Assembly: GCF_021134715.1 (NCBI RefSeq) | Contig: NC_060023.1 | Coordinates: 11,966,001-12,030,000 of the forward strand | Source: Daphnia pulex | Taxonomy: Eukaryota; Arthropoda; Branchiopoda; Diplostraca; Daphniidae | Direction of reading: 5' to 3' | DNA: 64,000 bases | Shown: one piece after another, positions 4,274 to 44,843 of the stretch | Layout of the letters: each line of letters starts with the position of its first letter | Numbering within the stretch: position 1 is the first letter of the stretch | The notes under the pieces: generated by a model | Databases searched by the model: none | What the model was told of the DNA's origin: nothing | What the model saw: only the letters and a program-made list of their open reading frames with translations | Position numbers and translations under genes: made by a program

Positions 4274-4711
4274 ACAGCAATTCTTACAACTGACTTTCTT
4301 CCCGGTTACGTGCAGTCTGTCGATAGAACCAAAGATCTCACTAGTGGTAGTCGTGGCGTCTCTCCCTCGTGAAAGTTTGAACTCTACTATGTATCCCTCC
4401 CACCATCACGGTGCAGTAACCGCAGTAACCATAGTGGCCGACATGCTTTCCTTTGAATTATGAATTAACAAGAAGTCGATACGATCAATTGAATCGATGA
4501 AACGCGATTTCCCTACCTTTCGTTGACACTCTTAATTTTACGTTATCAAACTTTCCTACCGCGTTTTGACCAAGATGGCAACTTTTTCAATGCACATTCC
4601 TGAGTCGTTTTTACTTAACCCTTACATGTAACTAAAGAAAAGAAAATGCGAAAGTTTTCAGCACAAATACTCTGTATTCAACCGAATATACAAAGTATCT
4701 CGACCGACAAT

Positions 4712-5359
4712 TTAAGCTGTTTCCATCGGCGTCGTGGTGGCGGGGGAGGCTGCAGACTCTTCTGTGTACTTTCCCTTGTCTTTGCCCAATGCAGCAAGAC
4801 GGCCCTTAGCTCTTCGCTCAACAATCTTCTTGCGATCCTTATCCATCTTCAGTTTGACAATGACAACCTATCAGAATAACAATTTGATTAGTGAGACCAT
4901 AGAACAGTATTTCAAGACACACATGACTACTTTAGTGGCAAACAGCACAACACATAACCCTTTAAGTATACTCACTTTGGATGGGTGGATACCAACTGGA
5001 ACTGTGGCTCCATTGGCTTTCTCACGTTGGATCCTTTCAATGTAGATCATGAACTTCTTACGGTAGCACTGGATGACTTTGCCAACCTGCTGTCCTTTGT
5101 AATGTCCTCGAACAACCTGAAGCAAACATGATACATGGAATTACATTTTCCCATACTTGGACAGATCAATTGCATTGCAAGTTGGACATACCTGGACTTC
5201 ATCGTCTTTGCGGATGGGGATGTTTCGTACGTTGTACTTCTGTTTAAGTTCCTTCGACAGAGGAGCCGTCATCAACTTCCTGCGAATGTGGGAAGGGGCA
5301 CTAAAATGACGCTTGCGATTCTTGCGACGAGAAGCAGTTACTCTAGTGTTCAACTTCAT
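4712..5359 (-). CDS. RpL26: Ribosomal protein L26 (uL24)
   Basis: Large-subunit ribosomal protein near the peptide exit tunnel. Three coding exons, 5192-5359, 4976-5116 and 4712-4867, give 154 aa. The N-terminal [20 protein letters not shown], the KOW-type region around [20 protein letters not shown] and the basic [17 protein letters not shown] are family-diagnostic. The C-terminus ends in a Thr/Ala-rich tail. An acceptor-like site at about 5385 just upstream of the start suggests a 5' UTR intron, common in ribosomal protein genes. It is transcribed divergently from the acyl-CoA dehydrogenase gene. Confidence 0.97.
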
Positions 5360-5909
5360 TCTTTGTCGGTCGAAATCCGGTAAACCTGAATTTACGAAAA
5401 TGAAGACAAACAAACGTGAGCAATGTGAGTAGCAAGAGTCGGCACAGCGACAGTAGACTCGATTTAGAACTTCAAAGACACAAAAAACTATTTACACAAA
5501 AATATAGACTACAAATAATTCTTAAAAGCAATTCTAGTTTTAAGGTTACTTTCTGAACAAGCTCGACGATGGATTAGATTCGAAAGGATGAACGAGAGGA
5601 AACCTAACCTGGATTTTTGCTTCGAAGGAAAGGAAGAATGGCAGACGGGGAACAACGTTGCCTTTAAAGTAAAAACTTGTATAGAGGGCTCTCCAATCGC
5701 TTGCATTTATTTTGGATCATAGATGGTGCTGGTGGTTGTCAACACAGAAGAAAAAACACGTTCGTACTTGCAACGTTTGCATAATTTCTTAAGGAAGTTA
5801 ACTGCATTAAATTAACAGGAAAATGTTTAAAGTTTCTCGCTGCCTACCTTTAGTTCAGGTCCGTATTATTTTCAAATGGCTGACAAGGCTTTCATATTAG
5901 TTTTAATGG
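5360..5909. other. Divergent intergenic region, RpL26 / ACADSB
   Basis: About 550 bp holding the RpL26 5' UTR (probably with an intron) and the promoters of two divergent genes. No TATA box or coding segment could be supported. Confidence 0.55.
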
Positions 5910-8461: not shown

Positions 8462-11400
8462 ATGAATGAAAAAGAGGCAAAAAGTCAGAGGCTGATGTTG
8501 ATATCAAAATGGAGAAATTCGTCACGAAGGTCGTTATCTCGTGAAAGGCCTAAGTCACCAGATATTCCTCCAGATCCTCCAACTAAGAATGCTCAACGAA
8601 ATTCAAAGACCAGAGAATATCTCATTCCAATTGCAAATGAATCAACAGGTTTAATCGAGATGCAACCTTTGTTGATTGTTGATGATAACAAGTAAGAGTG
8701 ATATTTCCTGCAAAAATCAGAATGTTACTAAAGTCTTTTAAAAATTGCTTTTAGGTCTTCTACCAAAATTAGTGAAGATAAAGAAAACAAACTATTAACA
8801 CATGACGATTTGCAGCTATATGTGCAATCAGATATCACAAAAGTTGAATCAGTTCCAAACAACAATACCACAGTTGATAATAATGTTAATCAGCTTGAAG
8901 CTACTACTGATCTCAAGGATAATAATAAAGAAATGTCACCAGTCTTGGAGGTTCAAGACTTGAATCTCCCATTTGCCATTGGAGATTTAGTCTGGGCCTA
9001 TATTTCTGGATATCCCCTTTGGCCTTCGCTTATTACTCCAGATCCTGGGGAATCTATCTACACAAAAACCAGGAGTGAGTATTTTTTTTTTCTTTCCAGT
9101 TTATTTTTAAAACTTAATTTGTTTTGTTTTTGTTTTTTATTCCAGTAACTGGAAAGACAGAAAGCAGGTTATATCATGTTGAATTCTATGGGGATAATGG
9201 GTCACGAAGCTGGCTATCTGCCAATGTGTTGTTTCCTTTTAAAGGTGGTGTGGAAGAGTTATTGAAAGACAAAAATGGCTTTTTGAAACATGTAAAATAA
9301 TTATAATCTATCTTTTTTAATCATTTTTCTAATGTGTATATTGGAATGTGAATTCAGGTTCAGTCCAAAAGCAAAATCTTCAAGTCCCTTCAACAGGCCA
9401 TCAAAAGTGGTAGGAAAAATTGGCAGTTGGCTGTGGACGAAGCGAAACAGGCTGTGTCTTTATCAAGGTATGATTCCGAAATTAAGAAGCACCTCGTGAA
9501 AAATGAAACTCATGCCTTTTTAATTATTACTCAGGAATGAACGTTTGGTGTTATTCAGAAAACTTCTTCAATCCAAAGAAGAAGAGCAAATTCAACGAAA
9601 AAGAAAATCTGTAGATCAAAATGTGGACAGAAAACCTAAGCGTCGTCGCCAGAGCAAAGAAAGCTCGGAGGACTCCGTTTCCTTAGAAGATCAGCAATCA
9701 ACAGTTTCGAATGAACATATCCAGACGTTGAGTGATGTCAGTGAGCAATCGGAAGATATTCCTCAAGTGGAAGACAATAAGCAAACAGAGGTGTCTGTTC
9801 CAGAAGATGTGAGTAAAGAGGTAGCGAAGAAACGTGACAAGGAAATGCGTACGGAAGTTTGCGAGTGTTGCGGATCTCGAGAAGGTCAAACCATGCCATG
9901 CAACAAGTGTCGGTCAGTTTATCATCCCGAATGTATCAAAGAGAACTCGGAGGAAGCTTCAAATGCCGAAACCTTTTTATGCCTAAATTGCAATCCGTCT
10001 ACCAACTCAAATTGCTGCCTTTGCCGGAAATCGGATGGCGAGTTGCTTATTTGCAATTTAAAGCTGTGTGGTCGACGTTATCATCGCCATTGTTTGAAAC
10101 TCTTCCACTCGCCAAGCATAAAGCAAGAAAAGCCAGCTTCTCAGTTCTCATGCCCAGCACATTACTGCCACACTTGCGTTGCAGATTTAAATGAACTGAA
10201 TCAGGTAGAGAAGAAATTGTTGCGCTGCATTCACTGTCCAACTGCCTATCATCAAAGTATTTCTACTTAAACGTTTCTACCATTTTGACTTGACCTAATT
10301 GTGCTATTTTTTATAAGGTGAAAAATGTTTGGCGGCTGGCTGTGTTCAACTGTCCACTTTTCAGATGAAGTGTTTTAAGCATGTGGAAAATCGCGATGTT
10401 GTTAAGAAAACCAAGAAGGAGAAAAAGACGATTATACCTAATCATTACAATGTAAATTGGTGCATCGTTTGTTCCGAAGGTGGAAGTCTTATATGCTGCG
10501 AACGTTGTCCTTCGTCGCTTCACACTCATTGTGCCGGATTGGAAAAAGAGCCAGATGGATCGTTTATCTGCTATGAATGCACATCTGGCAAGACCATCCT
10601 CTACGGAGACATCGTTTGGATTAAAATGAGCATCTATAGGTCTGTCTTCTCATTTGTACGTCTTTAACCAAATACCAAGAATCAACATTTATGTTCGTAG
10701 ATGGTGGCCAGGCAGAGTTTTCCCCTTGGATGAAATTCCGCCTAAACATCAGAAATATCAGCCAAAGGCAGGCGAGTTCTTGGTCTATTTCTACGGCAGC
10801 AACAACAGCGCTTATGTGTATCGTGGCCAAGTATTCCTCTATCAGGACGGAGTAAGTTTTCTTTTTATCTTATTTCTTTCGAAACAAATACTGAGTTTTG
10901 TTATTTTCAGGACCAAGGATGTAAAGTGAAAAGTAAGAACAAATTAGGTGATGACTTCAAACGAGCCTTAGAAGATGTTACTCCTGCTTTTCAGCTACGT
11001 AAACAAGTACTGGTTGAAAGAACAGCCGAGCGTCAAGCGAAGATTAATGTAGTAAGTCTCATCATACTTCTTTGATAATAATAGTAATGTTAACGCCATA
11101 CTTCTAATTTCTAGAAACCACCACATTACAACAAAATCCGCAGTAACAAACCAGTGGGTAAAGTTCGTATGCAAGATTCTAGCCCTTTCTCGTCCGCTAT
11201 ATGTGACTGTGAAGTTATAGAAGGGCAACCAACGTGTGGACCGGATTCAGAGTGTATCAACAGGTTCGATCCAGTCCTTCAGTGGTTTTACTATAGGCAC
11301 CGACTAATTTTAATTATGTTATTTTAGAATATTGTTGTTTGAATGTGACCCGAATGTTTGCGCTGGTCGGAAATTGTGCCAGAACCAGCGTTTCCAGCAA

Positions 11401-12458
11401 CGTCTTTCGCCTCCTCTCTACCCGTTCAATACTGGAGGAAAAGGCTGGGGGCTTAAATCCCATGCTGACATAAAGAAAGGCGATTTCGTCGTAGAGTACG
11501 TTGGAGAAATCATCGATAACAACGAATTCCGGCGCCGTCTCAAAGCCAAACAAGACGCGCAAGATGAAGCTTATTATTTCCTGACGTTGGATAACAACCG
11601 AATGATTGACGCTGGACCCAGCGGAAATTTCGCTCGTTTTATGAATCATTCGTGTCAGCCCAACTGCGAAACACAAAAATGGACCGTTTTGGGTGATACC
11701 CGAATCGGACTCTTTGCTGTGGTTGACATTCCTGCCCATGCAGAGCTAACCTTCAATTATCAGTTAGAATGCGCTCAAGATGTCGCGAATGAGAGCAATC
11801 AAAGGCAGCAGCCTTGTCACTGTGGAGCTCCAAATTGCGCTGGATTTATTGGTGCCAAACCCAAACAATTGAAGGTAATTCAATTTCTTTATAATTTCAG
11901 CAATTAGTCCTTGATAAAAAAATCATCTTTAATTTCTTAGGTGGAAAAGGTTAAAGTAGTAAAAGGCAAAAAGAAAAAACAGCAACGGAAACTGGAAAAG
12001 GAAACAGTGTCTGAGGATTTTTGCTTCCGCTGTACCGAAGGCGGTGAATTGGTGGTATGTGATTTCAAGAATTGCAGTAAAGTTTATCATCTTGAATGTC
12101 TTAAATTGTCCGCTCCACCAAAAGGTAAAAACAAAATCTTCAGATTAAAACTTTTTTTTCCCGTATTATAATCGTACAAAATCTTTTTTCAGGTCAATGG
12201 ACGTGTCCTTGGCATCACTGCGATGTTTGTGGTCGCAAAGCCTCCCAGTTTTGTAGCGTTTGTCCCAACTCTCTCTGTTCGACTCATGCCCTAGAAGTGG
12301 ACATGCAATCTCACGACCAGCTTGGTTTAATCTGTAATGAGCATTCTCAAGAAGAAACGGAATTTTTTCTCAAGCGTCGGCTGGAAGAAGATGCTGCGAC
12401 TGTGGTGACTACATCGCCGGAACCTTCTAGTTCCCTCAGTGAGACAAGTAGCTGTTGA
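8462..12458 (+). CDS. NSD: NSD-family histone H3K36 methyltransferase
   Basis: Nuclear chromatin enzyme that dimethylates histone H3 lysine 36 (homologous to NSD1-3 and fly Mes-4). Twelve exons: 8462-8691, 8755-9074, 9146-9291, 9358-9467, 9535-10256, 10318-10639, 10701-10851, 10911-11051, 11115-11263, 11328-11874, 11941-12124 and 12193-12458; 1095 aa. Domain order: PWWP ([19 protein letters not shown], from ~148), lysine/arginine-rich linker, a cluster of PHD fingers from ~376 ([40 protein letters not shown]), a second PWWP (~600-690), AWS cysteine cluster (~740), SET with [16 protein letters not shown] and FNYQLEC (~793-915), post-[16 protein letters not shown] (~925), then a final PHD and Cys/His region (~970-1055). 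This is the complete NSD architecture. The start at 8462 is the first ATG of the open frame; a 5' non-coding exon is possible. Confidence 0.94.
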
Positions 12459-20514: not shown

Positions 20515-20880
20515 TAACCATTTGGTATTCATTTTTATATTGGTTTTAGTAGACCCATCCCCAGCAACGTCAACCTGCAGGAGAAAAGGCCAGTTTTGAT
20601 GTCCTTCAACCGGAGGTCACTGAGATCATTACGTAAAACTGTCAATGTTGTGGTGTAGAGGTTGGGTAAGAACGGAAAGTTTTACATAACCATTTGGTAT
20701 TCATTTTGATAATGTTTTTTTGTAAACCCATCCCCAGCTACGTCAACCTGCGGGAGGAAAGGCCAGTTTGTATGTCATTCAACCGAAGGTCACGGAGATC
20801 ATTACATAAAATTGGTAAAACGTTTCCTGCAGTGGTGTAGAGGTTGGGTTAGAACGGGACGTTTTCCATCATTATCAAAA
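20515..20880 (+). repeat. Tandem pair of ~175-190 bp promoter-proximal units
   Basis: Two adjacent units, about 20515-20686 and 20687-20880, both start with TAACCATTTGGTATTCATTTT and share CCCATCCCCAGC, ACGTCAACCTGC, AAAGGCCAGTTT, a CAACCG-AGGTCAC-GAGATCATTAC block and GGTGTAGAGGTTGGGT. They lie directly upstream of a TATA-type promoter. A related but more diverged pair lies at the other end of the palindrome (about 29085-29390, reverse orientation). Confidence 0.75.
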
Positions 20881-20932
20881 AGGTAAAATACCCACAAGGC
20901 TTGAGTTGAGAGGTAAGGGTGAGAAAAAGTCG

Positions 20933-20970
20933 TATAAAAGGAGAGAGAAAAGGCGATAGAGATCAGTCGA
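20933..20970 (+). promoter_or_regulatory. TATA + initiator core promoter, left copy
   Basis: TATAAAAG at 20933-20940 is followed about 31 bp downstream by GATCAGTCGAG, which contains the arthropod initiator TCAGT. The spacing is right for a start near 20965, about 110 bp upstream of the first ATG of the YYTTK-repeat gene. The same pair is kept in the right arm. Confidence 0.7.
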
Positions 20971-22371
20971 GTGAGAATTTCCGACACGGCAACAACTGCA
21001 GCACTATTGGTCTCCAACTGCAGCACTATTGGTCTCCAACTGCCTTCTTCATCTCATTATCAGTTTGCAATCATGGGTAAACATTCAGTTTAAATTCGAT
21101 TCGTGAATGAATTCTATCTTATTTTTAGTTATTGATTCAGTTATATTCGAAAATTTATTTTTCAATTTGTTTATTTTAAAGTTAACTATGGCGCCGTGCT
21201 CCTTTTGGGTGTTGGATCGTTGATGGCTGGTGCGACCACTGGTGTACCGATGTCTCCTGCGCATGGTTGATAAGAAGCTTCGGCAGCAAAAGAATACTAC
21301 ACCGACTTACTGCTGCCGACTTACTAAAAAACAACATTAACTCTTCCTATACCGAAGACTCCAACACCAAGTCTCCTGAGTATTAAACTTCAACCTACGA
21401 TGTTCTATCTTAGGAAACATGGGTAATTATTCTGTCTTTTTTTACATGAATTGTGAATCATTACATATTTTTCTATTCGTTAATTTACTAGTTACAACTG
21501 AGAATTAATGGCATTAAAATTATTTACTATCTAGTTATCTGTGGGACATGTTGCTGTTGGGTGTTGATGGCTGAGCCAGGGGACCACGGGAGTACCGATG
21601 TCTTCTGGGTATGGCGGATACTAAACCGCAACGCCGTCGTTTTACAAAACAACGACATACGCAACTGGATACTACACCACCAAGACCCCCGAGTATTACA
21701 CCACAACTTGTGATGTCCCGAACTACTACACCGAAGCCTCAAAGTATAATTCTGTCCCGAGTACTACACCACGAAGGGAGCCGAGTACTACACCACGAAG
21801 GGAGCCGAGTACTACACCACGAAGGGAGCCGAGTACTACACCACGAAGGGAGCCGAGTACTACACCACGAAGGGAGCCGAGTACTACACCACGAAGGGAG
21901 CCGAGTACTACACCACGAAGGGAGCCGAGTACTACACCACGAAGGGAGCCGAGTACTACACCACGAAGGGAGCCGAGTACTACACCACGAAGGGAGCCGA
22001 GTACTACACCACGAAGGGAGCCGAGTACTACACCACGAAGGGAGCCGAGTACTACACCACGAAGGGAGCCGAGTACTACACCACGAAGGGAGCCGAGTAC
22101 TACACCACGAAGGGAGCCGAGTACTACACCACGAAGGGAGCCGAGTACTACACCACCATGTATGCTGCCATTTTACACCGAAGCTCCTGAGTATTACACC
22201 AAAGAGGTTGCATATTACGCTTCAACCCGCGCTGCCCTCAGTTGCTATCCCGAGGTTCCCGAGTACTACACCACCAAGGCACCCAAGTATTACACCACAA
22301 ACGCTTCCGGATTTTACTACAAGGAGATTCCTAAATTGCTAGAGCCGAAATATCTATTTTATTTTATTTAA
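20965..22371 (+). pseudogene. Degenerate YYTTK-repeat secreted-protein gene, left copy
   Basis: The first ATG is at 21073, interrupted after ATGG by a GT donor; the next exon (from 21182) encodes a signal-peptide-like VNYGAVLLLGVGSLMAGATT and stops at 21268-21270. A second, related signal-peptide exon follows at about 21536. A long repeat region and a tail with PEYYTKEVAYYAS and PEYYTTKAPKYYTT follow, to a stop near 22371. The repeat and tail lie in different frames and the leader exon stops early, so the gene is probably no longer functional as a full protein. The pattern of signal peptide plus Tyr/Thr repeats suggests an extracellular or cuticle-like structural protein; that is inference. 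The leader exon and its ATG-GTAA donor appear tandemly duplicated. Confidence 0.6.
21758..22157 (+). repeat. 24 bp tandem array, 16 units (left)
   Basis: Sixteen full copies plus a partial of a 24 bp unit containing GAAGGGAGCCGAGTACTACA, with no visible variation between units. In the biologically likely frame each unit encodes EYYTTKGA; another frame is also open throughout (RVLHHEGS). The mirrored array in the right arm has only seven units. Confidence 0.93.
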
Positions 22372-22868
22372 ATTGGTTGGTTGACTTCATGATCATTGGT
22401 CACTGGGAATTAACTGTTGATCTCAAATGAGAAAATAAAAATTCTAAGAAGGGTAATTCTTTTGTAAGACTTTTGGTTGTAACTTAAAGCCTGTCTTCAT
22501 TTTGATAGGCGTCTATTGGTGTTGGACTTCTTCAAGGCCAGTATCCTGCGCTGTGATACGTCTGTTTCATATTTTGGAGGTGATTACTGCCTTAGTCACT
22601 CTACGTACGGACATGTTCTTGTGTTTTGACGATGGTACAAGGGTAAGTTACGAAAGAAACTTGTAACTGTTGGTATTTTCAAATCTTATCAGTAAAAGGG
22701 AAGTGGTTGATCTTGGTATAAATGAAAGACTTTGAAGTTGAGATAATTCCTAAACAATACTTGGTATAAATTACTTGATGTAAATAAAAGACAATGAACA
22801 AAATACTTGTAAAAAGAATTGTGTTATATTGTCCCACCTCCACCCACAATTCCACCACATTTTACAGT

Positions 22869-22903
22869 CACATACACATATACATACACATACATACATA
22901 CAC
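22869..22903 (+). repeat. (CA/TA)n microsatellite
   Basis: Short imperfect CATACA repeat just before the MITE. Its mirror copy is at about 27333-27367. Confidence 0.8.
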
Positions 22904-22912
22904 TTGAGTTAA

Positions 22913-23175
22913 CCCGTTGGCTGCCACGCCATACAACCCGTAGGTTGCTTTCTACTAATCTACGTGCCACGTCTGAAGGATCCATGACCAAGTGGGACTT
23001 GCCATTGCTGACAAGTCCGTGCTGACAAGGGGAGGACTAAGGTGCATTGCCTTTTAACAGGCTTGCCTTGCGGCAAAGTTTGGGCTTGGCGACTCCCCGA
23101 CCCCGCGGCTTTTAAACCACGAGACCGAACAGCGCGGCCCGTGCAGTGGAGAACAAAGGTGTGGCAGCCAACGGG
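22913..23175 (+). mobile_element. piggyBac-like MITE, left copy
   Basis: A 263 bp non-coding element with perfect terminal inverted repeats CCCGTTGGCTGCCAC / GTGGCAGCCAACGGG, flanked on both sides by TTAA. TTAA target sites and termini starting CCC are the hallmark of the piggyBac superfamily. The interior is GC-rich relative to its surroundings and has no transposase, so it would need an enzyme in trans. An identical-looking copy sits at the mirror position 27061-27323. Confidence 0.85.
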
Positions 23176-23523
23176 TTAACTTACACTAACACAATAATAC
23201 CAACAATACGATGATCCACGTTGATGACGAGTCTCGGTGTCGGTCGCGATTCCACCGAGTTTCGTTCGCACCAGGAGCAGGGGCAACGTCCAACGGAGAC
23301 CGGTGACGATTGTTAAAGATGAGAAAATCCATCTTCTCGACGTCTCCTCTGCATTACCTGAATCAAGACAAACAATTCTTATTAAGTGACATGCCAATAA
23401 AAGTTACATAATAGTCACATAATACATATGGGATCATTGATCTGTTTTTTTTTTGCTCAAAACTTCAAAGGCGCGCTTTAAATTGCTTAAAATCTACCTA
23501 AGAATATTGAGAACTGTACACAT

Positions 23524-23913
23524 AACAAAGCTCACTTGCTAGTCTAAAAAAAAAAATTCCGGAAGTAGACCGGAAGTAACCACAGCGCCTCAACCATTGA
23601 GCTGTCATCAAATTAAACCACATATTCGTGATCTCCATGAAATTTGGGGTCGATTAGGTGTGATTTAAACGAAATCCAAAATTTGGCCAAAATCGAGAAT
23701 TTTCCTGAACTATAGTTCAGGAAAATTTTCGAAACCGGAAGTACGAAAACGTAAAAAATATAACATGAACTTTACCACAAATTTTACGAGGATCACGAAT
23801 ATGTGGTTCTTTTTCTCCTCAAATGAATATTTACTAAACTACAGACTGAAATGAGCAAACCGGAAGTAGAAAAAAAAAGCAAAATATCGAAAATTTAACA
23901 AGTGAGCTTTGTT
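23524..23913 (+). mobile_element. Non-autonomous TIR element with CCGGAAGT motifs, left copy
   Basis: A ~390 bp segment bounded by 15 bp inverted repeats AACAAAGCTCACTTG / CAAGTGAGCTTTGTT. Inside are several CCGGAAGTA motifs near both ends, paired CACATATTCGTGAT motifs and a 30 bp perfect palindrome at 23698-23727. It has no coding potential. No clear target duplication was found, so the superfamily is unassigned. Mirror copy at 26336-26725. Confidence 0.7.
23698..23727. repeat. 30 bp perfect palindrome inside the TIR element
   Basis: TTTTCCTGAACTATAGTTCAGGAAAA is the centre of a 30 bp self-complementary sequence with no loop, in the middle of the TIR element. It is repeated at the mirror position (about 26522-26551). 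Confidence 0.85.
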
Positions 23914-25040
23914 GCTGGCATAGTAATCGTCAGTTATCACTAAATATTTCAAAAGAATAACTGCCGATAAATGTTAAAGACATGTGCAAAGTTTCTGAAA
24001 CTGACTGTTTTGACAGCTGCAAATTTTCAAAAAGCCATCTAGCGTTGGAAAAAAGAAACTTCAATGTTAAACTTCGTTGGCGCGTAAGTAAGGCCTGATT
24101 TTGGAAACTACTACACAGACAGAGTCTAACTCAACTAGACAATTGGTAGATAACCTACGAAAATAAGTCAATTGTTGGGTACCTGGGCATAATCCCGTGG
24201 CGAGTGACTGCAGGTACTTCACAGCGGGCGGAAGCGAACACTGAAGTGATTTAATTCGCCAATGAAGCACAAGAAGCAGCGTACGTGGTGAAGATAAGGA
24301 CCCGAACGTTGGTAAAAGTCCCTCTTCTGTCATGGACAAAAGCCAGCGTTGGCTCAGGACTCACGATTCCATGAAGAATCTGCGTTGTAGATTGAAACTG
24401 GCGGCCGACTCGCGATCTCAGAGGACGTCATAAATAGTTCTGTAAAAATGAGTTGGGAATTAAACTTAAACAAAATTAACTCATAGTAGCATGGTAAAAG
24501 ACTAAAAGGTGATAATGATGTTTACCTTTATCATTTGGGTGATGAATTCAGAAAGACATTAGACTTTGATCAAGCAGATCTGGAAATGTACTAAATACAC
24601 TTCACACTCTTCATGTACATTCACTGAAACTGGAACTGTAATTAGCAATTGGATAAGGAAAATTATCTATATTATTTACAAATTTACATATGAAAAACAA
24701 AACTCTACCTATCTCTCAGCTGGGTTGCCTTCTGAGCGGCTGTAGAAACAGTTGTACACTCGACAAACATTCTGACACAGGTTACACTTGCAAGATTCAG
24801 AAAAGATCCATGGTCCATGCACAAAAACTTTTGTCTAATTCCACTGTATGCAGGCTTCCTATATGAGTTTCAGGCTTTTGACAGCATAAGGATCTAATGG
24901 ATGGAAAGTGACTGAGCACTAAGTCAACTTGTTGGAATGACGGACTGACTTTCTAGAATTTAAAGAGATGGATGTAATATTTCAAAATAAAGAAACTAGG
25001 TCAAGATAAACTTACACAAACGAAGTTCAATTGAGAATTC
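23914..25040. other. Inner left arm, unassigned sequence
   Basis: About 1.1 kb between the TIR element and the spacer. The minus strand has a 90-codon open frame (24067-24339), mirrored on the plus strand at 25910-26182. No domain is recognised and no coding call is made. Confidence 0.5.
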
Positions 25041-25208
25041 GGAATCACAAAAGCCCAAAAGGGTTCTACTAACGGTGGAGATCTTCTGTCAGCAACCCTT
25101 ATTTACTGACCGCTAGATGCCACTGTCTTCAGTTGATTTTGTCATACAGCCTGCTTCATGAAACATGGCGAAACAAATTGTTGCTATTGTATATACTTAT
25201 TTTTATGT
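25041..25208. other. 168 bp spacer at the palindrome centre
   Basis: Unique sequence between the two arms. The left arm ends and the right arm begins at a GAATTCTCAATTGAACTTCG-type sequence. The spacer contains CCGCTAGATGC, a short string also present in the direct repeats at 16.6 and 19.5 kb. No gene. Confidence 0.85.
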
Positions 25209-26335
25209 GAATTCTCAATTGAACTTCGTTTGTGTAAGTTTATCTTGACCTTGTTTCTTCATTTTGAAATATTACATCCATCTCTTTAAATTCTAGAAAG
25301 TCAGTCCGTCATTCCAACAAGTTGACTTAGTGCTCAGTCACTTTCCATCCATTAGATCCTTATGCTGTCAAAAGCCTGAAACTCATATAGGAAGCCTGCA
25401 TACAGTGGAATTAGACAAAAGTTTTTGTGCATGGACCATGGATCTTTTCTGAATCTTGCAAGTGTAACCTGTGTCAGAATGTTTGTCGAGTGTACAACTT
25501 TTTCTACAGCCGCTCAGAAGGCAACCCAGCTGAGAGATAGGTAGAGTTTTGTTTTTCATATGTAAATTTGTAAATAATATAGATAATTTTCCTTATCCAA
25601 TTGCTAATTACAGTTCCAGTTTCAGTGAATGTACATGAAGAGTGTGAAGTGTATTTAGTACATTTCCAGATCTGCTTGATCAAAGTCTAATGTCTTTCTG
25701 AATTCATCACCCAAATGATAAAGGTAAACATCATTATCACCTTTTAGTCTTTTACCATGCTACTATGAGTTAATTTTGTTTAAGTTTAATTCCCAACTCA
25801 TTTTTACAGAACTATTTATGACGTCCTCTGAGATCGCGAGTCGGCCGCCAGTTTCAATCTACAACGCAGATTCTTCATGGAATCGTGAGTCCTGAGCCAA
25901 CGCTGGCTTTTGTCCATGACAGAAGAGGGACTTTTACCAACGTTCGGGTCCTTATCTTCACCACGTACGCTGCTTCTTGTGCTTCATTGGCGAATTAAAT
26001 CACTTCAGTGTTCGCTTCCGCCCGCTGTGAAGTACCTGCAGTCACTCGCCACGGGATTATGCCCAGGTACCCAACAATTGACTTATTTTCGTAGGTTATC
26101 TACCAATTGTCTAGTTGAGTTAGACTCTGTCTGTGTAGTAGTTTCCAAAATCAGGCCTTACTTACGCGCCAACGAAGTTTAACATTGAAGTTTCTTTTTT
26201 CCAACGCTAGATGGCTTTTTGAAAATTTGCAGCTGTCAAAACAGTCAGTTTCAGAAACTTTGCACATGTCTTTAACATTTATCGGCAGTTATTCTTTTGA
26301 AATATTTAGTGATAACTGACGATTACTATGCCAGC

Positions 26336-26725
26336 AACAAAGCTCACTTGTTAAATTTTCGATATTTTGCTTTTTTTTTCTACTTCCGGTTTGCTCATTT
26401 CAGTCTGTAGTTTAGTAAATATTCATTTGAGGAGAAAAAGAACCACATATTCGTGATCCTCGTAAAATTTGTGGTAAAGTTCATGTTATATTTTTTACGT
26501 TTTCGTACTTCCGGTTTCGAAAATTTTCCTGAACTATAGTTCAGGAAAATTCTCGATTTTGGCCAAATTTTGGATTTCGTTTAAATCACACCTAATCGAC
26601 CCCAAATTTCATGGAGATCACGAATATGTGGTTTAATTTGATGACAGCTCAATGGTTGAGGCGCTGTGGTTACTTCCGGTCTACTTCCGGAATTTTTTTT
26701 TTTAGACTAGCAAGTGAGCTTTGTT
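26336..26725 (-). mobile_element. Non-autonomous TIR element, right copy
   Basis: Mirror of 23524-23913 with the same 15 bp inverted repeats and central palindrome. Its presence at the same place in both arms shows the element was inserted before the arms were duplicated, or was copied by gene conversion. Confidence 0.7.
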
Positions 26726-27060
26726 ATGTGTACAGTTCTTAATATTGCAAGCTTGTTTTTAAGTTTTAAAAATTGCATTTTTAAATCTTTGAGCTAAAAA
26801 ACCAGATCGATGTGCCTATATGTATTATGTAACTTTTATTGGCATGTCACTTAATAAGAATTGTTTGTCTTGATTCAGGTAATGCAGAGGAGACGTCGAG
26901 AAGATGGATTTTCTCATCTTTAACAATCGTCACCGGTCTCCGTTGGACGTTGCCCCTGCTCCTGGTGCGAACGAAACTCGGTGGAATCGCGACCGACACC
27001 GAGACTCGTCATCAACGTGGATCATCGTATTGTTGGTATTATTGTGTTAGTGTAAGTTAA

Positions 27061-27323
27061 CCCGTTGGCTGCCACACCTTTGTTCTCCACTGCACGGGCC
27101 GCGCTGTTCGGTCTCGTGGTTTAAAAGCCGCGGGGTCGGGGAGTCGCCAAGCCCAAACTTTGCCGCAAGGCAAGCCTGTTAAAAGGCAATGCACCTTAGT
27201 CCTCCCCTTGTCAGCACGGACTTGTCAGCAATGGCAAGTCCCACTTGGTCATGGATCCTTCAGACGTGGCACGTAGATTAGTAGAAAGCAACCTACGGGT
27301 TGTATGGCGTGGCAGCCAACGGG
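27061..27323 (-). mobile_element. piggyBac-like MITE, right copy
   Basis: Mirror of 22913-23175 with the same 15 bp TIRs and flanking TTAA on both sides. Same length, no coding sequence. Confidence 0.85.
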
Positions 27324-27864
27324 TTAACTCAAGTGTATGTATGTATGTGTATGTATATGTGTATGTGACTGTAAAATGTGGTGGAATTGTGGGTGGAGGT
27401 GGGACAATATAACACAATTCTTTTTACAAGTATTTTGTTCATTGTCTTTTATTTACATCAAGTAATTTATACCAAGTATTGTTTAGGAATTATCTCAACT
27501 TCAAAGTCTTTCATTTATACCAAGATCAACCACTTCCCTTTTACTGATAAGATTTGAAAATACCAACAGTTACAAGTTTCTTTCGTAACTTACCCTTGTA
27601 CCATCGTCAAAACACAAGAACATGTCCGTACGTAGAGTGACTAAGGCAGTAATCACCTCCAAAATATGAAACAGACGTATCACAGCGCAGGATACTGGCC
27701 TTGAAGAAGTCCAACACCAATAGACGCCTATCAAAATGAAGACAGGCTTTAAGTTACAACCAAAAGTCTTACAAAAGAATAACCCTTCTTAGAATTTTTA
27801 TTTTCTCATTTGAGATCAACAGTTAATTCCCAGTGACCAATGATCATGAAGTCAACCAACCAAT

Positions 27865-28987
27865 TTAAATAAAATAAAATAGATATTTCGGCTCTAGCAA
27901 TTTAGGAATCTCCTTGTAGTAAAATCCGGAAGCGTTTGTGGTGTAATACTTGGGTGCCTTGGTGGTGTAGTACTCGGGAACCTCGGGATAGCAACTGAGG
28001 GCAGCGCGGGTTGAAGCGTAATATGCAACCTCTTTGGTGTAATACTCAGGAGCTTCGGTGTAAAATGGCAGCATACATGGTGGTGTAGTACTCGGCTCCC
28101 TTCGTGGTGTAGTACTCGGCTCCCTTCGTGGTGTAGTACTCGGCTCCCTTCGTGGTGTAGTACTCGGCTCCCTTCGTGGTGTAGTACTCGGCTCCCTTCG
28201 TGGTGTAGTACTCGGCTCCCTTCGTGGTGTAGTACTCGGCTCCCTTCGTGGTGTAAGCTGGGGCAACGTAGATTGTAGTGCAGTACTTGGGCGTTTCGGT
28301 GATGTAACAAGTTAGATCCTCGGTGTAGTAGCTGGGAACAGAATAGTACATGGGAGCATTAGTATAGTTAGATGAGGCATCGGTAGGTTTTAGTTTAATA
28401 CTTAGAGCCTTGGTGGTGTAGTATTTAGGGGCCTCGGGAAATAGATGTTCCGTATGTTGACTTCGTTGTGTAGTAAAGCGGCGGCGTTGCGGTTTGGTAC
28501 CACCATACCCAGAAGACATCGGTACTCCCGTGGTCTCCCCAGCCATCAACGATACAACACCTAACAGCAGCACGATCCACAGTTGACTAGACAGTAAATA
28601 ATTTTAACATTAATTGTCAGTTATAACTAGTAAATTAAAAAACTGAAAAATATGAAATGATTCACAACTCCATGTTAAAAACAAACAGAATATTTACCCA
28701 TGTTTTAAGATGGAGCAGAGTATGTTGCAGTATGGTTTTCTCTCGTGGTCGACATCAACGATGCAACACCCAACTGCAGCACGGCGTCATAGTTAACTAT
28801 ACAATAAACGATTTAAAAATTAATTTTCGAATACAACTAGTCATTTCAAAAACTAACATAAGATAGAATTCATTCACGACTCGAATTAAAATTGATTATT
28901 TACCCATGATTGCAGTGATAATGATGAAGAAGGCAATTGGAGACCAATAGTGCTGCGGTTGTTCCCGTGTCGGAGATCCTAACTCGA
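27865..28987 (-). pseudogene. Degenerate YYTTK-repeat secreted-protein gene, right copy
   Basis: Mirror of the left copy. First ATG at 28905-28907 with a GTAA donor one base after it; the next exon reads VNYDAVLQLGVASLM and then stops. A second leader lies near 28500-28590 and opens a 175-codon frame (28046-28573) with LLLGVVSLMAGETTGVPMSS, EAPKYYTTKALS, YYSVPSYYTEDL and seven GAEYYTTK units. It then shifts frame before the PEYYTKEVAYYAS tail that ends at 27865. This copy is more complete than the left one between leader and repeat but is still broken at the leader and before the tail. An expressed isoform that starts at the second leader cannot be excluded. Confidence 0.6.
28079..28255 (-). 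repeat. 24 bp tandem array, 7 units (right)
   Basis: Seven copies of the same 24 bp unit as the left-arm array, in reverse orientation. The unit encodes EYYTTKGA. The copy-number difference (7 against 16) is the largest difference between the otherwise nearly identical inner arms. Confidence 0.93.
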
Positions 28988-29022
28988 CTGATCTCTATCG
29001 CCTTTTCTCTCTCCTTTTATAT
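28983..29022 (-). promoter_or_regulatory. TATA + initiator core promoter, right copy
   Basis: On the minus strand, CATATAAAAG (about 29014-29022) followed about 32 bp later by GATCAGTCGAG (28983-28993). This matches the left-arm promoter with one base changed in the TATA flank. Confidence 0.68.
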
Positions 29023-30959
29023 GACTTTTTCTCACCCTTACCTCTCAACTCAAGCCTTGTGGGTATTTTACCTTTTTGATAATGATGGAAAACGTCCCGT
29101 TCTAACCCAACCTCTACACCACTGCAGGAAACGTTTTAGGTAATGATCTCCATGACCTTCGATTGAAAGACATTAAGACATACAAACTGGCCTTTCCTTC
29201 TGCAGGTTGACGTTGCTGGGGATGGGTCTACAAAAACCAAAAATCAAAATGAATACCAAATGGCTGAGCCTTGCGGCTATTGTACCTGCTTGATAATGAT
29301 GTAACACGTGTGACGTGTCGTTCTCACGCAACCTCTACAACACAGCATTGACAGTTTTGCGTAATGTTTCTCGTGACCTTCAACCAAATTAATAGGAAAT
29401 TATACTGGTCGATAATTTTAGCCAAATATACAGATCAATTCAGAAAATGGTTTTTAAATCTCCTACTATTTGTTTAATTGTTGATTGAGCAATAGTAACA
29501 AACTCTAATCTCACCTCCATATGAAAATTCCAAGCAATTAGCTTTCTAAATAATCACCATTTATTTGGGTCGTTTTCTCATTATGATACTGGTCTCCTTT
29601 TGGAAATACATTATCTTTTAATTAAAAAACATTTCCCCGGAAAATCGATTTAGAATTTGTGTTCGTACATGTTGAACTAACAGAATCCTATAATTAACTC
29701 AAGACCATAAATAAAGAGAAAATAAAACAAAATAAAAACACGTGGTTTTCAAACAATGATGACAAGCCACTACGTCACCAACTTAAAGGCAGCGATGTTT
29801 AATGGGCATAGGTATTGCATTATTGATTGTCGGTGAGACTGAGGAGCTAGTGGTTCAACAGAAGAGGTTGGATCTTGGATGTATCATTTAACCTACGAGG
29901 TCATCCCAATGCAGCCAACATAAACTCTAGTCTAGCACAAAACTACTTGTTTGCACAATTAGCACTAACCACGATAACTCCACTAGGTTTTCCATGGTCA
30001 ACAGCATTATCTACCAAGACACTTGTGAAATCTACTCATCATCAGTGTCTCCTCAAGGAAGATAATTAATATTTCATGTCATATTAATACTTCAGGTTCT
30101 GAGACTTCAGTGACATCACACATCAACTATCGAAGAAGGATTTGAATAATTTAACTGTGATGCTTAAAATTGCCATGTTCCCCACAGAGTAGTTGACTTC
30201 GCTTTGACTCTAGTGAAAGACTTTACCTTTTCTTGTTTTTCTTGCTCTTTGTTGGATTGCCAGAAACGGATTCGACAAATGACACAACATTTTCTTTTGG
30301 TGAATTGGGGATGGTGTAGATATCGGCACGACTTCACTCAAGGCTGAAAACTGTTCTTCACTCATCACAACACTCACATTATTAGCAATTCGTTTTCGAA
30401 ATTATCTCGGCAGAGCTAATTGATTCATCTCCAGGTACTGTAGTTAATTCTTCTTGCTTTTTTTGTTTATATTGTTCTCTGAGCTAGTGCAACTGCAGCC
30501 TGCAGGTATCTAGCAGAAGCTTTTTCCACGCATGACGCAACAACGCATCTAGCGGTAATCTTTCCAACTAGACAATAAATGCAAGTTTTGGATTTTAAAA
30601 TCATGTTGAATACAAAACTACTATCTTTCTTTCTTGAATGTCTGAGTGGAACTAAATATTCACAATGTTACTTGAAGAAATTGTCGAATAATCTGATTAC
30701 TATAATCTGAAAACAAGGTTCTGTATGGTTTTATTATATTCCTACCTTGACCGTTACTAGAATGGGCTGAAAGATTACTACTACAGTGTTAAGTAAAAAA
30801 GCAACAAAACGGTTGAAAAAATACATGGGGTTTTAACAAATACGAAAAATGAACTGTGGTTTTCAAACCGTTAAGCATCACTTCTAGAGCCCCTGTTTAA
30901 GTGTTTAAGGAGTTAGTTTAGGGAGAAGAGGGGAGAATGGGAAGAAGAGGAAATATGGG

Positions 30960-42248: not shown

Positions 42249-44843
42249 CTACTTGATCTCCACGGCGAAATCGTAATTGGTGGGTTCGCGGGGTATGGCT
42301 GGCGGCTCTTCGGGCAAGTCCAATCCTTCCACGTCGAGCAACCTGAGTTTTGTGTTCATCGACAGTAGAAATTCCAAATCGGCCATGGCCTCTTTGCTCG
42401 TCATTTTATTGCCTGTAAAGTTTGAATTTGTAAAAATTGTGATTGAATTGTATTTTATCTTTGAAATACGGACCTAGAAGTGCATTGATTCCATCTACCC
42501 AGTAGTCGAACGTTTGCTGATCGGGTGCCACGAAATCCAGCGATCCCACATCATGAGAATCGAGCATCAACGAAAATGGAAATTGCGACGTTGTCTTCTT
42601 ACCCCTAAGAAAAGAATTTCATTGTCAATGTTATTTATTCTTTAATTGTTGGTCAGGAAACTCACTTTAGATCTTTCATGTGTGGGCAATCTTTTCCGGT
42701 GACCAGAGTGCGGATGTCGACAATGGACAATTTCTCCTTCAATTCGTCTAGTGCCGGAACGCTCTTTTCATCGCAATCGCCGTAATGCAAGACTCGGTGA
42801 TTAGGCGACAGGCGAACGTACCAAAACTTGTCCTTGACCCTCTGTCAATGATTAATTATATTTTATTGATGAATTTTGTAATAGAACACTTTTTGATTAC
42901 CCCTCGATTGGTGTACTTGCTGAAGCGAGTGCCCTCTGTGAGGAATCCTAGTCTCTGTTGCTGAATGAGTTCGAGAATTTCCGGCTCGATTTGTTGGCGC
43001 AATTCCATAATGGGCCGTGACCTGGACTCCCATTTCTCACGACTTGTACGCTCCTGTTGCCACAAATCCGTGATTTCAGCGTAGGTGAGTGCAGCTATCC
43101 GCTCCTTGAATATTTCCTGTGACGGAGGGCGTCCGGCTAGAACGCGCGTGATTTGCTCGCGAACAACCGAGAATACTTTGGCGAAATCTTCAACTGTTGC
43201 TCGCATTTCCTTCCACGTCTTGTTCACCACCACCAGGCAAATGCAAAAGAGCTCCTCAAACGGGTGGTCGTGATTAAAGAACATGGGGTGAAACGACGTC
43301 CCTTGCTCAGTCGGTGCTTCCCCAATCTGTTGGAAATTTCAGAAATATATTTAAAATGATACTTGGTGTAACCATGAAGATGGTAGATTTCAATTACCTT
43401 GAGAATTTCGCACAATAATTTGGTTAGTTCGATGGCGGCTCGGGCAAATGGACAATCATAGTCGTCGCCTCGTCCCGAATTCTCCAGCACCACTCTCGAG
43501 TATTTTTCCGGATGGTAGAGAGCAAAGTAGTGCATTGCATCGAGAGCTAATGCACCCGGTGGAACCTGAGCTGTACGAGACAAGTTTAGTAATCAAGGAT
43601 CCGCGCCCACGGATTTTTTTTCTCTCGAATATTCTTACCGAAATCGTTGAGTGGAGTTGCGTCGTTCCTGAATCCTAATTTGCGGAAATCTCGCGGAATG
43701 ACCTGTTTGCGAGTGACCACGTCTTTGACGGGAGTGACAGAGTCGCTGCCGTCGTTGTCAAATGCAATTCGCCGCAGTTCTCTGATCTTCTCGAGAGCCT
43801 CGACGTCTCCCGATTCAATTGGCCGGTTCATTGGCTCTTCCAGCACGTTCAACAGCAGCGTTTGGAGTACGTGCAGTTGGTGGGCAACCTCATTACCGCT
43901 CGCTACTCCAGGCACTAGAAAATAACACAGAAAGTCGTCTCACCAGCGGAACAAAAGGTGTTTAATCAACGAAAATACCTTGAATGATGCTCATGACGAT
44001 CGTATTACGAATCTGGCGAGAGTTGATGGTTTTGCTCATGGCTGTTCGCTTGGAATCATCGGCTTTGAGGAAAAGAGCGTTGATCAACGCCAAAGTGTTT
44101 TGCTGAATGGCTGCCGATGCGTTTTGCAGATGCATCGCCAGATTGGGAATGGTCAACTCCTTTTCGACTATCGCGTACTTGGTACTCGAATTATGTGCAA
44201 TGCTCTCCAGAATGGACAGGGCCGCCTGAAGAGTCCGCGGATCCTGTGCGCTCGCCTGACTGTTGATGTAAAATGCGATCTTCTTGATGAACGACGGTTC
44301 CAAGACATCCCACTGCGTTAGTCCGTGATCCATCAGATCGACAAAGGCCGGGAGAAGAAGGGCTGTAATCTGGTCGGATGGTTTGCCCGTCTCCATGTTT
44401 TCAATGTAGGCAATCAACATTTTCATGCCTTGCTTCTCTGTGAATTCGGCCGTGAAAGTAGGATCGGTGGCATGGCCTGCCAACTCTTGGACAGCCTTCA
44501 TTTTATCTTCATGAGCCGACTGAGGAGAAAGTTGATCGAGGATGCTCTGCGTGATTTTGCCAGGTGAAAATCCCAACTGCAGAACATGGCCGTTCTTGAC
44601 GTCCAATCGGTTTTGTTCGCTGACAAAGGCTCGATTTGCTTCCATGTTAAATCGCAGCGCATACGTCTCAGCATCTATTAGATTCCAATAGTTGCACAGA
44701 TCTTGAATGATGGTAGACAGAGGTTGCTTTTGATTGAGCTCAATCAACTGTGGCGTCTTGCCGGCCATTTCAACGGCAATCTTGACAACGTTGTTGTCTT
44801 TTGGTGTGGGGAGGGCTTTTGACCGCAGCAAGGTGGAATCCAT
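42249..44843 (-). CDS. Elmo: ELMO / CED-12 engulfment and cell motility protein
   Basis: Adaptor that binds DOCK-family exchange factors to activate Rac in phagocytosis, cell migration and myoblast fusion. Seven exons: 43979-44843, 43639-43914, 43398-43570, 42901-43326, 42666-42841, 42474-42604 and 42249-42412; 736 aa against ~727 in human ELMO1. Order: N-terminal ubiquitin-like/RBD region ([20 protein letters not shown]), armadillo repeats, the ELMO domain ([19 protein letters not shown] to [18 protein letters not shown]), a PH domain (from ~580, [20 protein letters not shown]), and a proline-rich tail [12 protein letters not shown] that fits the PxxP ligand for the DOCK SH3 domain. The first exon is unusually long (865 bp). 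Divergent from RpS13, with ~860 bp between starts. Confidence 0.95.

Follow-up and report, generated by a model that had tools for sequence, protein, structure and literature searches.

How can the two arms of a long palindrome be nearly identical around its axis and clearly diverged further out? The question arises from a 64,000-nucleotide stretch of Daphnia pulex DNA (NCBI RefSeq assembly GCF_021134715.1, contig NC_060023.1, here contig C7, positions 11966001-12030000), hereafter the window, in which two genes with Tyr/Thr-rich YYTT repeats face each other tail-to-tail within one inverted structure. To answer it we compared the window with the rest of the analysed genome (133,188,837 bases in 13 contigs). 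Judging from these sequences, it is very likely that this pair descends from an ancestral palindrome with an asymmetric centre, which was copied to several loci and whose arms have been kept alike by gene conversion.

Structure of the palindrome in the window

The original prediction described an 8.8 kb near-perfect palindrome with a 168 bp spacer and an axis at about 25124. Palindrome, spacer and axis all stand. The inner arms, at 21981-25040 (plus strand) and 25209-28255 (minus strand), align as inverted repeats with 98.59% identity (3,060 aligned columns, 30 mismatches and 2 gaps, by two methods), lie 168 nt apart and place the axis at ~25124.5. The near-perfect part is, however, restricted to 6.3 kb (21981-28255). 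The remainder consists of diverged outer arms (left ~20518-21988, right ~28080-29263) that share 72-83% identity with many gaps, which bears out the two-tier identity that had also been proposed. Indeed, when identity was calculated in bins of 100 columns along the arms, a check that the prediction itself had named, it reached 99-100% nearly throughout the inner arms, except at ~23.4-23.5 kb, and became low and gappy outward of ~21.98 kb. Outside a divergent island at 23406-23509, the inner arms differ by four substitutions only, at 22455, 24749, 24989 and 24997. The palindrome contains perfect arms of 1,433 nt, and chance is hence excluded as a candidate for its origin. Searching the entire window for inverted repeats of 120 nt or more, spaced by up to 20 kb, yielded 16 pairs, every one of them part of this palindrome, and no further match to an arm was found elsewhere in the window (E 1e-6, low-complexity filter). 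The two flanks of the palindrome are unlike each other.

Read from the outside inward, an arm begins with upstream repeats of ~170 bp, followed by a TATA box, an initiator-like TCAGT and the leader exons; then come the Tyr/Thr-rich coding part, which contains a 24-bp minisatellite, and ~2.7 kb of 3' flank. The left outer arm (20518-21980, plus strand) holds the upstream repeats, the core promoter, the leader exons and the start of the minisatellite, and the right outer arm (28256-29263, minus strand), which aligns to it, is likewise diverged. The left inner arm holds the end of the minisatellite, the rest of the gene's 3' part and the ~2.7 kb 3' flank, and is mirrored by the right inner arm. 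The switch from identical to diverged sequence falls inside the coding minisatellite. On the left this array has 16.7 copies (21757-22156, plus strand; YYTTKGAE repeats in one frame, by repeat scan and translation) and on the right 7.3 copies (28080-28255, minus strand; repeat scan), where it marks the outward limit of the homogenised tract. As for the spacer (25041-25208), it is made of the right unit's 3' tail joined to a truncated left unit, so that the centre is asymmetric.

Arm likeness and the centre across related loci

At the DNA level, the core matched 77 times genome-wide, the 3' part 95 times and the promoter 123 times, and a protein search gave 229 matches. Orientation was counted on the best 40 of 77, 40 of 95 and 40 of 123 DNA matches, whereas the best 150 of the 229 protein matches were clustered by merging same-strand matches within 2.5 kb, a step that hides tandem copies inside an arm; related loci are, moreover, not independent. 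Among the matches listed, neighbours within 20 kb were plus-then-minus in 11, 15 and 13 cases (core, 3' part and promoter lists), never minus-then-plus, and on the same strand once, on C1. The protein matches listed formed 86 clusters, with 26 plus-then-minus neighbours within 15 kb and none of any other kind, 34 of the 86 being partnerless. Head-to-head neighbours are therefore absent from the matches listed. Merging the DNA and protein sets yields at least 36 tail-to-tail pairs of the YYTT-repeat family, located, among the matches listed, on C7 (17), C10 (7), C9 (4), C11 (4), C2 (2), C3 (1) and C4 (1). Sequence-level comparison of both arms covered 16 of these 36 pairs, window included; the other loci bear L numbers. 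Two further units on the same contig, C7:11318785 (plus) and C7:11377716 (minus), are 89% and 88% like the 3' part of the window and lie ~57 kb apart in opposite orientation; they may be the halves of a split palindrome or part of some wider inverted arrangement.

In single units, for which we used L015-L024, the tail past the arm end continues in one direction. At the window and L009-L012 the tail is retained by one arm only; the other arm breaks off after ~9 bp of it and continues into the tail's far end, read backwards. Variants of this junction occur in the window, with a few extra bases at the join, in L013, with an insert, and in L014, with a similar join, which gives six or seven loci in total. 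Furthermore, an 11-bp indel lying no more than ~40 bp from the axis separates the two sides: in L009-L013 all 5 truncated arms carry it and none of the 5 full arms does. The truncated arm of the window has the full-arm state. The shared asymmetric junction and the side-specific indel imply that the palindrome predates its copying to the loci of the window and L009-L014. Within this one genome, the junction and the side-specific core markers make the palindrome older than the likeness of its arms. The centre of L025-L034 differs from that of the window and L009-L012, so at least one more palindrome lineage has to be assumed. In L013 (C7:12067080-12077070) the spacer is enlarged to 871 nt (4557-5428 of the locus) and contains short self-complementary repeats.

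The rationale of the arm comparison is that, if one palindrome arose and then spread, its arms should differ from each other at least as much as the loci do. They do not, which argues for arm-to-arm gene conversion: a palindrome older than its spread, yet with arms alike within loci, requires transfer between the arms. Loci without one arm at 85% coverage were dropped for each segment. Among the sampled arms, the two belonging to a locus were reciprocally nearest at all loci but one in both the promoter (8 of 9) and the 3' flank (15 of 16), at 12 of 16 in the mid-arm, and at 4 of 12 in the core. In the window itself, the arms are more alike within than between copies in the 3' flank, the mid-arm and the core, and not in the promoter segment.

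In two loci, L025 and L026, cores group by side and outer arms by locus. One clade of the core tree unites their left arms (100/99) and another the right arms of L025, L026 and L033 (100/99), and uniting both core arms of L025 is rejected (p-AU 0.0009, for a group chosen after the table was inspected). The arms of L025 are identical in the 3' flank, unlike their core. Same-side likeness of the core across loci amounts to 99.4% and 98.2%, against 93.1% within the locus, and the core is hence not merely fast-evolving. At other loci, arm likeness extends past the minisatellite; its copy number differs between the arms in 10 of the 16 loci with arrays in both, and seems to shift faster than conversion resets it. 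Taken with the junction common to several loci and the arms that are nearest within most of them, the grouping of cores by side and of outer arms by locus favours the older inverted gene pair under gene conversion that the prediction had offered as one of two possibilities.

Several points weigh against this reading. The single miss in the promoter segment is the window, whose arms are 91.2% identical to each other and whose right arm is 91.7% identical to L014. Support for joining the two window arms in the promoter tree is modest (78/99, not starred), and their branches of 0.04-0.06 indicate that the outer arms of the window were not homogenised recently. The mid-arm failures (4 of 16: L009, L014, L026 and L029) and the core failures (8 of 12) would need old or patchy conversion. 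Identities of 100% may have been raised by assembly polishing, and the case for arm-to-arm conversion is built on the sequences of one genome.

Homogenisation had been predicted to proceed from the centre. This holds for the window, which appears converted up to the axis, but not generally. In 14 of 16 palindromes, arm likeness over the 400 bp beside the core end is lower than over the part that lies 800-2400 bp away (p 0.004 by sign test and 0.0008 by Wilcoxon test, both optimistic through shared ancestry). L031, whose second core arm was not found, was left out of this gradient. Median arm identity is 94.8% at 0-50 bp and 99.9-100% beyond 1.6 kb. The two exceptions are the window and L034 (C2:898740-908730), which has, near position 4983 of the locus, one of the most symmetric centres, with a 1,058-bp perfect stem and a 72-nt loop. 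We infer that sequence beside the axis pairs poorly for repair; the low likeness of the core may also be due in part to palindromes with symmetric centres having been lost.

The left arm of the window shows the full-arm state all the way to the axis, as if a tract from the right arm had reached the centre, and the outward end of the homogenised tract lies in the coding minisatellite. Inside it, the divergent island of 104 bp carries two alleles that are ~71% alike. Arm comparison shows the left allele (23406-23509, plus strand) also in L010-L014 and in L009's left arm (96-99%), and the right allele (26740-26830, minus strand) in L009's right arm (98%) as well as, at 93-95%, in L027, L029 and L031. 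The island is an old difference, bypassed by conversion on both sides.

These observations can be assembled into a mechanism. A palindrome with an asymmetric centre would have formed in an ancestor and would then have been copied to several loci, at each of which inter-arm gene conversion would hold the arms nearly identical. The arms would pair by fold-back in one chromatid, or between sisters, and a lesion in one arm would be mended from the other; sequence on the axis side would rarely be covered because it cannot pair easily. The window departs from most loci in having a tract that runs to the axis and outer arms without recent homogenisation. We propose only tentatively, and with some doubt, that the palindromic pair and not the single gene is the unit of duplication, with the convergent layout kept, conversion failing to reach the axis, and survival made possible by a core that is diverged and asymmetric.

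Other explanations for the mirrored arms

The second possibility raised by the original prediction was a recent inverted duplication nested in an older one, whose inner arms would be identical through youth. Such an event would produce a sharp change from nearly identical to diverged sequence, as is seen here, but this limit lies inside the minisatellite, where a conversion tract can end as well. The idea fits badly, and is in our opinion very unlikely, because the centre junction recurs at other loci, making the inner palindrome old, and because an old two-allele island, split between the arms of L009 too, persists inside the supposedly new part. As the main account it is ruled out by the shared junction and the survival of the island. 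Equally, long arms of ~100% identity at many loci are the kind of sequence prone to assembler or polisher error, and fold-back reads or joining could have made the mirror, or polishing could have equalised the arms. An artefact of this kind is nonetheless highly improbable, given that the differences between arms are ordered (the outer divergence, the island, and the minisatellite copy numbers in 10 of 16 loci), that side-specific core markers are common across loci, that the palindrome's flanks differ on its two sides, and that polishing would not leave the core unlike. Assembly fold-back is thus an unlikely origin of the mirror.

Related copies, paired and single, lie on at least seven contigs, as could also be the case for a transposon of the foldback or terminal-inverted-repeat type, with long inverted ends, whose arms are copied or remade at each move. 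We find this improbable: Pfam detected no transposase domain in four frames of the window palindrome, arm lengths are unequal (~5.8 kb in L014), and promoters and gene parts are common to the copies. In the short flanks compared, likeness of the left flank to other loci extends to 20290. The hairpin might, on the other hand, be under selection itself, for example if read-through from either gene gave rise to a long hairpin RNA through which the family is silenced or tuned. Every listed neighbouring pair is tail-to-tail, arms stay alike at several loci despite visible frames that are broken alike in both, and a structural role has been proposed for nematode pairs (PMC1803023). Conversion, however, accounts for the likeness without selection, and the tip of the would-be hairpin is its least alike part, which makes selection an implausible answer too.

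Gene content and relation to known palindromes

Both arms carry YYTT-repeat coding parts and core promoters, which points to paralogous genes. What we take to be a TATA box followed by an initiator-like TCAGT was located by pattern at 20933-20967 (plus strand) for the left gene and at 28987-29021 (minus strand) for the right gene. When 10 loci were scanned, this pattern was found in both arms of 7 (window, L009, L013, L014, L026, L032 and L033), in one arm of L011, and in none of L010 and L025. The right gene copy has a 185-codon open stretch (28046-28603, minus strand) with a signal-like start and YYTT repeats; the left copy is split across several frames. The same broken stretches are present in both arms at several other loci (for example L010, L012 and L028), and since introns may account for the breaks, these copies are not called pseudogenes here. 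The repeats and the signal-like start suggest that the YYTT proteins are secreted structural proteins. In the four palindrome frames Pfam gave a single match, to a mucin-like repeat, at 18.5 bits and under the cut-off of 27, and an Rfam scan of the window gave 0 matches at gathering score.

Other features were seen in the window. A stretch of ~270 bp at 22909-23179, mirrored in the right arm, is flanked by a 19-bp inverted repeat (read by eye) and resembles a small non-autonomous transposon; another, at 23525-23911, has inverted CAAAGCTCACTTG-like ends and internal inverted repeats, and the divergent island ends just before it. The palindrome sits among ordinary single genes, with flanking exons at 9545-11907 and 43962-44843 that encode the PHD and SET domains of an NSD-like histone methyltransferase, and an ELMO domain. 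G+C content climbs from ~35-41% to 41-50% over the last 24 kb (40000-64000).

Long palindromes have a reputation for instability, and most work on them has dealt with single cases on sex chromosomes. In Drosophila, the Hsp70 and Amylase inverted gene pairs are known for the concerted evolution of inverted duplicates; they resemble the present case as inverted duplicate genes in an arthropod, and differ from it in having one or two loci each and no dispersed palindrome family. In Caenorhabditis, inverted pairs of paralogous genes occur in convergent or divergent orientation, and their intergenic arms resemble each other within a genome more closely than they resemble the orthologues (PMC1803023); these pairs share with our palindromes the inverted paralogues, the short spacer and conversion as the named mechanism. 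They amount to few examples across species, whereas here many related pairs lie in one genome, convergent only among those listed; the shared junction is dispersed and the core poorly converted. According to Zhao et al. 2007, long palindromes are stabilised after a central asymmetry arises (PMC1803023), which fits the truncated arm seen here. Human Y palindromes such as P6, whose conversion tracts have a mean minimum length of ~2 kb, likewise have multi-kilobase arms held alike by arm-to-arm conversion, but on a sex chromosome and with far longer arms and spacers than these small palindromes of one gene family on at least seven contigs (PMC3723533). Primate X palindromes also show long-lasting arm-to-arm conversion, with structurally unstable spacers and GC bias tested, yet they are unrelated, individual and X-linked, and ours are related copies in one family (PMC8981503). 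In a palindrome survey of parthenogenetic animals, D. pulex was among three species without the annotation that the method needed (PMC7953838). Judged by titles and the beginnings of abstracts, none of the listed papers on Daphnia palindromes, gene conversion, inverted or tandem duplicates and concerted evolution describes these palindromes, and a literature search with three peptide strings of the YYTT family found nothing.

Maintained inverted pairs are thus already known, from the Y chromosome and from C. elegans. What is new here is the many related autosomal loci, the convergent layout among the pairs listed, the shared asymmetric origin and the poorly converted core. One family with many palindromes, several of common origin, allows us to ask where conversion tracts begin and end, whether stability depends on central asymmetry, and whether the palindromes copy as units. 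Daphnia alternates clonal and sexual reproduction, and conversion could be compared between the two modes. Furthermore, if the pair were indeed the unit of duplication, the family would provide natural replicates of the birth, stability and spread of long palindromes on autosomes.

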